The notes under the pieces: model-generated
What the model saw: only the letters and a program-made list of their open reading frames with translations
Database searches by the model: none
What the model was told of the DNA's origin: nothing
Program-made: the position numbers and the translations under genes
Part shown: positions 37,409 through 40,207 of the stretch, piece after piece
Numbering within the stretch: position 1 is the stretch's first letter
How the letters are laid out: the number at the start of each line of letters is the position of its first letter
Assembly: GCA_021413735.1 (NCBI GenBank)
Contig: JAIOPV010000043.1
Span: forward strand, 5,431-69,430
Source of the DNA: Planctomycetota bacterium
GTDB taxonomy: Bacteria; Planctomycetota; Planctomycetia; Gemmatales; Gemmataceae
Reading direction: 5' to 3'
Length of the DNA: 64,000 bases

Positions 37409-37591
37409 ATGGACTTCCGTCCACTCGCTGAGGCCGAACGCCGTCAATTGCTTACTGCGCTCCGTGGAAATGCCGACCGTGGTATTGCCCTGCTGCTCGA
37501 CCGCAGGGACACCAGCTTCACCGGCACCGCCGACGAACTACCCGACGAGCAGGTGCTGACTGCCGTCAAATCCGTTCCGAGCCACTACTGA
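37409..37591 (+). CDS. Small 60-residue protein at the head of the E1-E2-like operon
   Basis: I do not recognise the family. The product (MDFRPLAEAERRQLLTALRG... ending SVPSHY) is charged, soluble and mostly helical by pattern, with a possible short beta part (TSFTGTADELPDEQV). AGGAGG at 37395-37400, eight bases before ATG, is the best ribosome binding site in the window, which supports it being real and well translated. It does not end in Gly-Gly and shows no beta-grasp pattern, so there is no sequence reason to call it a ubiquitin-like modifier. It lies 105 bases before the E2-like gene. Confidence 0.75.
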   Translation: MDFRPLAEAERRQLLTALRGNADRGIALLLDRRDTSFTGTADELPDEQVLTAVKSVPSHY

Positions 37592-37594
37592 GGC

Positions 37595-37693
37595 GAAGGA
37601 TGAAGGACGAAGGATGAAGGATGAATCACAGACCGGGTCAGTTCCGGTTGCTTGGTTTTCCCTTCATCCTTCATCCTTCGTCCTTCATCCTTC
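37595..37693. repeat. Hairpin with 31-bp perfect arms directly before the E2-like start codon
   Basis: GAAGGATGAAGGACGAAGGA... (37595-37625) is matched by its exact reverse complement at 37663-37693, with a 37-base loop. Each arm is itself made of 7-base units (GAAGGAT, GAAGGAC). The right arm ends three bases before ATG 37697 and occupies the place where a ribosome binding site should be, so folding would affect E2 translation. Confidence 0.9.
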
Positions 37694-37696
37694 CCA

Positions 37697-38122
37697 ATGG
37701 GTCTCCTCGACACCGAGACTGGTAAGCGACGGCTTCTGTCCGTCGAAGTGCCAGCTATTGAAGCGTACAACGAGGGCCGCGATCCCGATTACCGCATCTC
37801 GGTGAATCGGAACGGCGGCGTCCTCATTTTGTCGTATCGTCTGAAACCGTGTCACAACGTTTACCGTCTCGAAACACGGATGCTTTCGAGCTATCCCGTC
37901 GTGCCGCCAGAAACACGGGTCATCACGCCGTTGAAGCATTGTCCGCACCTGCTCGAAGGGCAAAGCGTCTGTATGTGGCGACAGGGTTCGACCCGTGCTA
38001 CAAGCCGATGGGATCCGACCCAGTTCACGTGCGTGTTCGCTGTGTTGGCTGCATGGCGATGGCTGGCGTGCTACGAAGTCTGGCATGAAAGCGGTGAATG
38101 GCCATTGCCGGAAGCGAAGTAG
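37697..38122 (+). CDS. Ubiquitin-conjugating enzyme E2-like (UBC fold) protein
   Basis: A 141-residue protein with the order of elements of E2 enzymes: a beta meander (GVLILSYRLKPCHNVYRLET), the YPxxPP turn (SYPVVPPETRVITP, 65-78), HCPHLLEG, candidate catalytic Cys92 in GQSVCMW, Trp105 in RWDPTQF, then helices ending YEVWHESGEWP. Eukaryotic E2s have the same Cys followed by W-x-P. In bacteria such proteins pair with E1/ThiF enzymes, as found here immediately downstream. It would receive an activated modifier on Cys92 and pass it to a target. No ribosome binding site is visible; the 31-bp hairpin arm is there instead. Fold assignment is by pattern only. Confidence 0.75.
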   Translation: MGLLDTETGKRRLLSVEVPAIEAYNEGRDPDYRISVNRNGGVLILSYRLKPCHNVYRLETRMLSSYPVVPPETRVITPLKHCPHLLEGQSVCMWRQGSTRATSRWDPTQFTCVFAVLAAWRWLACYEVWHESGEWPLPEAK

Positions 38123-38148
38123 CAGGATTCGGGGAAAGACAAATCCCG

Positions 38149-39033
38149 ATGGCGCATATCCTTCAAGTCGGTGCTGGCAGCGGTGGCGCGGTCGTTCTCG
38201 ATCTGCTCGCCCGCGAACCGAGTGTCAACCGGGTGTCACTCATTGAGTTCGACGTCTACGAATCACACAACGTGTACCGACATCTGTTCCCGGCGTCGAG
38301 TATCGGGCGACTCAAAGCGGAACTGGCAGCAGAATGGGTACGCGGCTTCCGATCTGATCTCGTCGTGAAGCCGGTGATCGCTGACATCACCGACCCCAGC
38401 CGCCAAACTGAGTTCGCACAGATCGCGGCAAAATGCGACATCGGCGTGTGTGCCGTTGATAACGAGCAAGCGAAGCATGCGTTCGATTCACTGATGCGAG
38501 TGGCTGGTAAGCCCTGGACTCTCGGCGAAGTGTTAAGCGGTGGTATCGGCGGATGGGTTCATCGCTTCGTACCAGGTGGGCCATGCTATGGCTGCGTCGC
38601 GAGCCATCTTCAGCGTGAAGTGAAGGAACAGCAAGACACACCGCCGCCGGATTACTCGAACCCAGGCGGCGCAATTCCCGAAACGACCGTCTCCGCGAAC
38701 AAAGCCAGCATCAGCGTGATCGCTTCCTTGCACGCCTCCGCGACGCTGGAAATGCTCAAAGACCCCTCCCCCTCCCCCCTCCCCCAAGGGGAGATGGGGC
38801 TAAATCCTGCTCCCCCTTCCTTCCCAGGGAAGGGGGATGGGGGGTTAGGTTCTTCGGAAACCTCGTTGCTGTTCAGTTTGGCCAAGGTGCCGGGCGTGTT
38901 CGATGAAGCGTTCCGGTCGTATCGCTTCCGGATTCCACGATCCCCAAGTTGCCTGATATGCGGAAGCGCTGCTGTTCCGCAGGGAGATCTCGATGTGGCG
39001 CTGGGCGAAGCGCTGGATCGACTGGGTACGTGA
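38149..39033 (+). CDS. E1/ThiF-like adenylating enzyme
   Basis: A 294-residue Rossmann enzyme that should adenylate the C-terminus of a small modifier. Motifs: VGAGSGG (7-13), FDVYESHNVYRH (34-45, matching the D-x-D-x-V-E-x-x-N-L-x-R of E1/ThiF), Lys56 in GRLKAE, and a structural zinc tetrad Cys146/Cys149 (PCYGC) with Cys268/Cys271 (SCLICG). A separate catalytic Cys is not obvious. Residues about 204-239 are encoded by an inserted palindromic repeat and are Pro/Gly-rich. ATG 38149 lies shortly after the E2 stop; the 3' end overlaps the next gene by 41 bases, so the genes are co-transcribed. Confidence 0.88.
   Translation: MAHILQVGAGSGGAVVLDLLAREPSVNRVSLIEFDVYESHNVYRHLFPASSIGRLKAELAAEWVRGFRSDLVVKPVIADITDPSRQTEFAQIAAKCDIGVCAVDNEQAKHAFDSLMRVAGKPWTLGEVLSGGIGGWVHRFVPGGPCYGCVASHLQREVKEQQDTPPPDYSNPGGAIPETTVSANKASISVIASLHASATLEMLKDPSPSPLPQGEMGLNPAPPSFPGKGDGGLGSSETSLLFSLAKVPGVFDEAFRSYRFRIPRSPSCLICGSAAVPQGDLDVALGEALDRLGT
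38760..38866. repeat. Palindromic element inserted in frame in the E1-like gene
   Basis: CCCCTCCCCCTCCCCCCTCC... with CCCCAAGGGGAGATGGGG and CCCCCTTCC...GGAAGGGGGATGGGG form two hairpins. The same element, about 85% alike, occurs at 52758-52857 inside another gene. Here it adds about 36 residues (PSPSPLPQGEMGLNP...) between the two halves of the zinc site without shifting the frame. Confidence 0.88.
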
Positions 39034-40207
39034 TGACCTGTTCCCGCTCGTTCGCACACGACGAACCGGGTTCACGGTCCGCGTTTCCTATGAATCGGCC
39101 GGCCAACTCCACACGGAACAGCCCGTGCCGTGGGCGGCCGATGCCGTTGTCGTGGAAGTCGTGCTTCGGCTGCCGCTCGCCGCACGCCGCAAGACAGACT
39201 TCGCTCTGCAATTCCCAGGCAGTCGGCCCGTTGCTGCCGAGTCTATCCGCCCGGATACCGCCGACCGCCACCGCATTATATTTCGATTCCCGGTTCCGAA
39301 CTTGGGCACCCTCGGCGAACTTCTCTGGAAGCTCCAACCGATCGCGACCGTGCCCATCACGGTTCTCACCTCAGACGCCTTTATCGCCGGACTGAGTTTC
39401 ACGAATCAAACCATTGCAGTACGACTCGGCTCGCAATCGCTGCCGACGAGAATGTTCGTCGTAGAAGGCTGCAAGGGATTAGTCACATCGACCGTTCTGA
39501 ACTCAGCCCACAGCCTGGCACCGCTCGCTGATCTTGGTGTGTCTGTCGAATTCAGCAACGAACGCACGGGTCACGTCTTCACGATTCCTGTCACGTTGAA
39601 CGCCTCGCAGCGGGCCAGCCACGAAACGCTCCTCACGGCTGTGTGTCCGCGTGTGCCGCGACGGCCGGGGTCGTGGTGGGTGATGTGGCGCATCGGCGAT
39701 AAGGTTCTCGCTGCTGATCGCGTGGAAGCAATCGCGGCTCGACGCTTCGAGGACGGCGTGCGATTGCTCGATACGCGATTCGCGGTGGCCGATCACACGG
39801 GACCGCTTCGGGTCGTTCGTGGGGCACCGGCAGCAGGAGCGTTCGCGCGTGTTGGCCCTTGTTTTCTCGTGGCAGGAAGTGAGTCGGGTGTCGTGGGATT
39901 GTGTCGACTTGCGGTGTTCGCAGTGCTACCGGGTGTACCGCAAGCTGCACAGCTTCTCGATGAGGAAGTGCTGATAACCGACGCGCCGACGGTGTTTGCG
40001 CCTGGGTTGGTGGAATCGATCGATCTGGTGCGAATTGCGGCGTTTGAACTGCGGCTGAACGGCCGAGTGCTCGGCACCGTGGCGTTGAGTCCGGTTCCGC
40101 CAGCGACGTTGACAGCCGAGGGCGGATTCAAACCGACGCAGGATTTCGATTGGAGCCCGGCCGCGGAAGACGACCTCTTGAAGCGACTCGGCCAACTCGG
40201 CAGCTAA
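38993..40207 (+). CDS. Unknown protein encoded with the E1-E2 pair
   Basis: A 404-residue protein that I cannot place. It starts inside the E1 gene (ATG 38993, GGGAG ten bases upstream) in another frame. The N-terminus is amphipathic and aromatic (MWRWAKRWIDWVRDDLF); the body alternates short beta strands (FTVRVSYESAGQL, AVVVEVVLRLPL, FELRLNGRVLGTVALSP) with few helices, suggesting one or more beta-sandwich or beta-grasp units. The end is GGFKPTQDFDWSPAAEDDLL then KRLGQLGS. No transmembrane helix or protease motif is seen. By position it is a target, adaptor or ligase-like partner of the E1-E2 pair; this is inference. Confidence 0.8.
   Translation: MWRWAKRWIDWVRDDLFPLVRTRRTGFTVRVSYESAGQLHTEQPVPWAADAVVVEVVLRLPLAARRKTDFALQFPGSRPVAAESIRPDTADRHRIIFRFPVPNLGTLGELLWKLQPIATVPITVLTSDAFIAGLSFTNQTIAVRLGSQSLPTRMFVVEGCKGLVTSTVLNSAHSLAPLADLGVSVEFSNERTGHVFTIPVTLNASQRASHETLLTAVCPRVPRRPGSWWVMWRIGDKVLAADRVEAIAARRFEDGVRLLDTRFAVADHTGPLRVVRGAPAAGAFARVGPCFLVAGSESGVVGLCRLAVFAVLPGVPQAAQLLDEEVLITDAPTVFAPGLVESIDLVRIAAFELRLNGRVLGTVALSPVPPATLTAEGGFKPTQDFDWSPAAEDDLLKRLGQLGS

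Follow-up and report, generated by a model that had tools for sequence, protein, structure and literature searches.

A conserved operon of Gemmataceae with E1-like and E2-like genes and a 60-residue protein as candidate modifier

Which protein, if any, is conjugated by the E1-like and E2-like enzymes of a bacterial operon that encodes no obvious modifier? This question was raised by an initial annotation, made from sequence alone, of 64,000 nucleotides from a planctomycete of the family Gemmataceae (assembly GCA_021413735.1, contig JAIOPV010000043.1), hereafter called the window. At 37409-40207 the window contains four genes, arranged head to tail on the + strand, for a small protein of 60 residues (sm), an E2-like protein, an E1/ThiF-like enzyme and a protein of 404 residues (p404). 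The coordinates and motifs first given for these genes held on re-reading of the open reading frames (ORFs), and their conservation and co-occurrence beyond chance establish that all four are real. They form a conserved system in Gemmataceae, which we lean towards reading as a protein-conjugation pathway with sm as the modifier.

Conservation of the system was evident from a survey of 95 genomes of the family, in which sm was matched in 67, p404 in 67 and E1, counted at E 1e-40, in 66. The E2 profile matched 68 genomes, or 67 after removal of one (G040) that was counted as lacking the system, its E2 match being weak (3.1e-4) and situated beside a CD-NTase-like ORF. All four genes were present in 65 genomes and none in 27, the three partial cases being one genome without p404 (G002), one without E1 (G034) and one with a p404 fragment only (G080). 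Thus, an all-or-none pattern was seen in 92 of 95 genomes. At the thresholds used sm, E2 and E1 were single-copy, and p404 appeared as two pieces on different contigs in five genomes. The genes co-occurred even where the operon was split; in G051, assembled as one contig, one cluster near 4.99 Mb comprises a gene for a JAB protease, sm and E2, and another near 9.38 Mb comprises E1 and p404. In split operons (G051, G094, G001 and G052) sm went with E2, not with E1. E2 and E1-like homologues thus co-occur almost perfectly, and the prospect that they might never do so, which the initial annotation had named as grounds for dropping its reading, was not borne out.

Gene order was examined at 64 loci from named genomes, among them Limnoglobus roseus, Zavarzinella formosa (both Gemmataceae) and Gemmata sp. 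IIL30. At every one of these loci (64/64) sm was directly upstream of E2; E1 was found at 54, p404 at 49 and JAB at 44, some of the missing neighbours falling at contig ends. The start of p404 overlapped the stop of E1 at 38 of 44 loci, and the p404 ORF of the window likewise begins within the 3' end of E1. Among 391 other Planctomycetota genomes sampled, the sm profile matched none at 1e-3, while the E2 profile matched 6 and the JAB profile 8, mostly weakly.

The initial annotation had found no JAB gene beside these enzymes. This was correct for 37409-40207, which encodes neither a JAB nor any protein ending in Gly (and so none ending in Gly-Gly, as had also been noted). The window's genome, which was searched with the JAB profile of this system only, likewise gave no match. 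The statement was not correct for the system as a whole, since JAB lay directly upstream of sm at 44/64 named loci and was present in 49/64 genomes. When whole genomes were searched for the 20 loci without an adjacent JAB, 5 had the gene elsewhere and 15 gave no match; in the family survey it was found in 46/95. Both JABs scanned exceeded the Pfam cut-off for Prok-JAB (PF14464), and the JAMM pattern was present in 40 of 41 full-length proteins, the exception (L106) having T instead of S. The profile matched 0 of the 19 genomes of the window's genus, although 16 of these have E2 and some are assembled into as few as one to three contigs. Given this absence and the 15 named genomes without JAB, the window's lineage has most likely lost its JAB gene.

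That sm is a protein-coding gene, which the initial annotation had supposed to be well translated, is supported by an AGGAGG whose last base lies 8 nucleotides 5' of its ATG and by the pattern of codon variation among 63 sequences of 60 codons, two insert-bearing copies being left out. Thus, variation was 0.56 at third positions versus 0.27 and 0.16 at the others, the other frames contained 1.7-2.1 stops per copy, and median dN/dS was 0.21 over 914 pairs with dS of 0.1-1.5. The small protein is therefore under purifying selection. For sm and p404 of the window, no family was matched at E 1 in searches of Pfam, PADLOC and NCBIfam, and a Pfam scan of 64 sm and 44 p404 sequences gave stray matches only, all above E 0.02. 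No match to sm was obtained from plasmids.

All 64 sm copies, two of which carry a short insert, start with MD and share the C-terminal motif SVP(C/S/V/T)HY, which in some is followed by a tail. Thus, 52 of 64 end in HY, and 12 run 1-6 residues beyond it, the tails being KL (five copies) and A, G, AG, AGI, AGV, GR and AVVSGQ (one copy each; the single G belongs to L113 and AG to L120). All 12 tailed copies were in JAB-bearing genomes and none in the 15 genomes without JAB, a pattern that matches the prediction of precursor trimming and is suggestive only, since the association (one-sided Fisher 0.028) involves few changes on the tree (3 in JAB, 5 in tails, 2-3 independent pairs) and is thus neither a test nor taken as proof. 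The structure predicted for sm was examined for a beta-grasp fold, as had been proposed at the outset; the model, of modest confidence (pLDDT 79.8, pTM 0.46), had the order helix-strand-strand-helix with a loose C-terminus. Two apparent relatives of sm were not accepted, SRF/MEF2 chains from a fold search (best Z only 2.4, rmsd 7-10) and, as best match among PDB sequences, a chain named E8 that the sm profile matched at E 0.0022 over just 16 residues.

Both proteins without a known family had been put forward in the initial annotation as possible modifiers. This suggestion stands for sm, which is the best candidate, although unproved, and is not supported for p404. The p404 model, of good confidence (pLDDT 88.1), has three beta-sandwiches of Ig/FN3/filamin-like type flanked by a helix at either end, and its structural matches (Z no higher than 9.2, with rmsd in most cases above 9) reflect a common arrangement only. 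With three such predicted domains, no recognised ubiquitin-like unit and a variable C-terminus, p404 was rejected as modifier, and its predicted Ig/FN3-like architecture is more in keeping with a partner or target.

The reading of the two central genes as E1-like and E2-like is supported by sequence comparison. E2 matched PADLOC E2 models (best 2.5e-9), its putative catalytic residue, C92, was invariant in 18 aligned sequences, and its profile aligned with the E2-like ORF of another genome of the family (L160) at an hhalign probability of 94.9, Cys on Cys. A search of the window's genome with PF14461 gave no match and was uninformative, since none was obtained in 14 controls either; plasmids yielded one partial match to E2 (32%, Mesorhizobium). 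E1, which starts 26 bases past the E2 stop, matched Pfam ThiF at 2.1e-20 and contains the motifs GAGSGG, D-x-Y-x-x-H-N-x-x-R, CYGC and CLIC. Among 33 sequences G8, G10, S11, G12, G13, D35, N41, R44, K56 and D104 were invariant, as were the four zinc-site cysteines and C101 but no other cysteines; none of these lies in the crossover loop, which we take to be the site of the catalytic Cys in ThiF/E1 enzymes.

The nearest PDB chains to E1 were UBA5, MoeB and MccB. Since almost the entire E1 profile of 270 positions (4-250, 9.9e-8) could be aligned with MccB but only 4-150 with UBA5 and MoeB, and since the substrate of MccB is a peptide with a non-Gly end, it is conceivable that E1 adenylates the sm C-terminus in the manner of MccB and that the product is a modified peptide, a lipid adduct or a carrier thiocarboxylate, not a protein conjugate. 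We regard this as improbable, however, as the system also includes a JAB and an E2 whose Cys is invariant, which are a better fit to conjugation and deconjugation than to an MccB-like product.

Like CBASS operons with Cap2 and Cap3, the system has an E2 nearest to PADLOC defence E2 models and an E1 core resembling E1-E2 models and Cap2; Cap3 is a JAB, as in the present system, and the ORF aligned by the E2 profile in L160 follows one that was labelled CD-NTase-like by eye. Unlike CBASS, the Gemmataceae system has separate E1 and E2 genes, the additional sm and p404, and a single copy in most genomes of one family; no CD-NTase was found among the window neighbours scanned or as a conserved neighbour of the operon. 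In two planctomycetes (L160 and L159) CBASS-like neighbourhoods were noted in which a CD-NTase-like ORF (again labelled by eye) is followed by an E2-like ORF. Pup/UBact is a small (about 60 residues) tag without a beta-grasp fold, reported also in planctomycete-type bacteria, with PafA as ligase; the sm end is not GGE or GGQ, and the enzymes here are E1, E2 and JAB. A precedent for an end other than Gly is the diverged Bub pathway, whose modifiers reportedly can end in Asn, exposed by a protease, and are said to be beta-grasp proteins processed by a serine protease.

With types 6a-6e of Iyer, Burroughs and Aravind (2006) the system shares an E1-like protein, an E2-like protein and a JAB in one neighbourhood, and with type 6d also a small stand-alone putative modifier (PMC1779556). 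In type 6d this modifier is described as a beta-grasp protein with a conserved C-terminal Gly, accompanied by an alpha-helical protein and by a JAB that bears an additional domain at its N-terminus (PMC1779556), whereas the small protein here ends in HY and p404 is predicted to be all-beta apart from its end helices. Planctomycete words had no matches in the text of PMC1779556. BilABCD operons, as described in PMC11354881, follow a similar four-part logic of modifier, E2, JAB and E1, with the JAB exposing a reactive C-terminus; BilA has two ubiquitin-like domains and a reactive C-terminal Gly and BilD a Cys domain. In contrast, sm is one 60-residue unit ending in HY, and the present E1 has no conserved Cys beyond the zinc set and C101. 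What is shared with bacterial E1-E2-JAB operons is thus a ThiF/E1 domain with intact ATP-site motifs, an E2 with a predicted catalytic Cys and, at the level of the family, a JAB; a C-terminal Gly on the modifier is not shared. The enzymes resemble those of 6a-6e, CBASS and Bil systems, but since modifier or neighbouring genes differed wherever they were compared, the operon is not counted as a member of any of these. Literature searches, which did not extend to Burroughs 2011, a likely place, listed no paper recognisable by title or abstract start as concerned with this operon.

A more distant version of the same arrangement was noted in another planctomycete genome (G175, locus L153), where the order is JAB, an ORF of 65 residues, E2, E1 and an ORF of 474 residues. 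The small ORF of this locus ends HYAGR and weakly resembles sm. Thus, hmmsearch with sm gave E 0.49, the best value among non-viral members of 2555 segments; the comparison scored 8.0 bits versus 7.0 or less in 2000 shuffles (0/2000 as high), and the hhalign probability was 88.8. The p404 profile matched nothing at E 1 in L153 or in L155, a second locus (L155:1-980) at which an ORF of 74 residues ending HGG adjoins a remote E2-E1 pair. The resemblance of this ORF to sm is weak and a relationship is not supported, since 93 of 2000 shuffles scored as high, its HGG end being a lead only. A third locus from another planctomycete (L156:3539-6442) contains E1 and an E2 that is split over two frames, together with a JAB-like ORF (profile E 0.1). 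Its small ORF, of 60 residues and ending YYIEG, showed no similarity to sm (1084/2000 shuffles as high).

Copies of sm were also present in phage-type contigs. In IMG/VR an sm gene was found on a contig of 33 kb (55% identity), one of 47 kb (42%) and one of 235 kb (38%), and the records of these three contained no E2 match. The 33-kb contig has Mom-like and HNH matches, the 47-kb contig tail-fibre and virion-protein matches, and the 235-kb contig matches to phage families, mostly of unknown function; a fourth contig, of 9.9 kb, encodes E2 in addition to sm and is possibly of bacterial origin. On one viral contig (L149:6171-6920) the sm gene overlaps the start of an ORF for a C39-like cysteine peptidase (PF13529, 4.8e-17). 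Of 50,697 phage records a single one carries sm, the 595-kb uncultured phage LR756511.1, whose copy ends SVPVHY and shares 55% identity with the viral query along the full 60 residues; no record matched the window E2 or a Limnoglobus JAB. In LR756511.1 (L171:2250-4443) a gene for a ClpX-type ATPase is upstream of sm, with three ORFs between, and one for an M50 peptidase is farther upstream.

These copies bear on whether the system serves anti-phage defence of the CBASS/Bil kind, with phage sm acting as decoys that saturate E1 or E2. Such a role, which would be compatible with sm as modifier, is suggested by the viral contigs and the 595-kb phage together with the fact that the nearest E2 model and several E1 models are defence families; it appears unlikely, as no CD-NTase or nuclease-type effector is conserved beside the operon, which occurs as a single copy in 67/95 genomes of one family and is not patchy across phyla, although family-wide presence does not exclude defence.

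Several observations weigh against conjugation of sm by these enzymes. E2 reached only E 0.1 with Pfam UQ_con, below the cut-off (a value attained by 3 of 18 E2 relatives), and E 0.17 or worse with known PDB E2s. The system is missing from 27/95 genomes of the family, and the absence of JAB from 15/64 genomes indicates that JAB is dispensable. The link between tails and JAB lacks phylogenetic power, sm ends in Tyr instead of Gly and is not beta-grasp in its modest-confidence model, and sm is retained on phage-type contigs that show no E2 match, so that sm may act without an E2 of its own. The last three of these features of sm, together with its staying with E2 and not E1 in split operons, would also fit a different reading, in which the modifier is a canonical Gly-ending ubiquitin-like protein encoded elsewhere and sm serves as adaptor, scaffold or activator, its conserved C-terminus being what binds E2. 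We consider this doubtful: the short variable tails after an otherwise invariant C-terminus resemble precursor tails, and the conserved neighbours include no partner that ends in Gly, the genome not having been searched for ThiS-, MoaD- or YukD-type proteins.

Other features of the operon are listed in Table 1. The inverted repeat between sm and E2 is built of GAAGGATGAAGGA-type units, and no perfect stem in 609 tiles of the window is longer. With the window included, 53 of 65 sm-E2 gaps are at least 40 nucleotides long, and a perfect stem of 12 bp or longer is present in 32 of them. None of the 65 stretches preceding sm contained such a stem, compared with 15 of the 31 E2-E1 gaps that reach the same length. 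If a hairpin forms after sm, it could maintain sm at a higher level than its enzymes, but in view of the stems in E2-E1 gaps these hairpins may simply be dispersed repeats. The 28-residue insert in E1 (SPSPLPQGEM...) is absent from three aligned relatives, and 44 of the 47 own-genome matches to E1 fall within it, several of them in other long open frames. Downstream of the bacterial operon, on the opposite strand, an M50-type gene was noted at 14/64 loci, with a Pfam M50 match in the one scanned.

Table 1. Positions in the window of the four genes and of two repeat-derived features
Feature	Coordinates	Strand	Basis
sm, 60 aa, candidate modifier, C-terminus SVPSHY	37409..37591	+	ORF
31-bp perfect inverted repeat, sm/E2 gap, possible transcript hairpin	37595..37693	.	
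E2-like (UBC) protein, 141 aa, predicted catalytic Cys92 in GQSVCMW, Trp105 in RWDP	37697..38122	+	
E1/ThiF-like adenylating enzyme, 294 aa, four-Cys zinc site	38149..39033	+	
Dispersed-repeat insert in E1, in-frame, 28 residues	38767..38850	+	
p404, 404 aa, three predicted Ig/FN3-like beta-sandwich domains, helix at each end	38993..40207	+	model

The pathway that we favour would run as follows. From an operon with the putative ancestral order JAB - sm - E2 - E1 - p404, sm would be made as a modifier of about 60 residues, its C-terminal His-Tyr being encoded directly or exposed when JAB cuts off a short tail. E1 would adenylate this C-terminus (Tyr60) with ATP and, as it has no conserved Cys in the crossover loop, would probably transfer the acyl group directly to E2, at Cys92. 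Conjugation itself, which we infer, would then consist in the joining of sm to a target by E2, with E1-bound p404 perhaps as its guide, and JAB, where present, would remove sm from conjugates. With JAB lost from the window's genus, the encoded mature C-terminus would suffice there, and conjugates would be permanent or removed otherwise.

To our knowledge, E1-E2 conjugation systems use beta-grasp modifiers that end in Gly or, in Bub, reportedly in Asn. It is possible, if tentative, that sm represents a new class of modifier of about 60 residues, without a beta-grasp fold, trimmed by JAB and activated by E1 and E2 at a C-terminal Tyr, which is widespread in one family and which large phages carry to hijack or saturate the host pathway. 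If so, it would show that E1/E2/JAB enzymes are adaptable to a different kind of tag, one that is tiny and does not end in Gly. The SVPxHY end predicts a recognisable tryptic remnant on targets, and the phage copies of sm open a host-phage conflict to testing.

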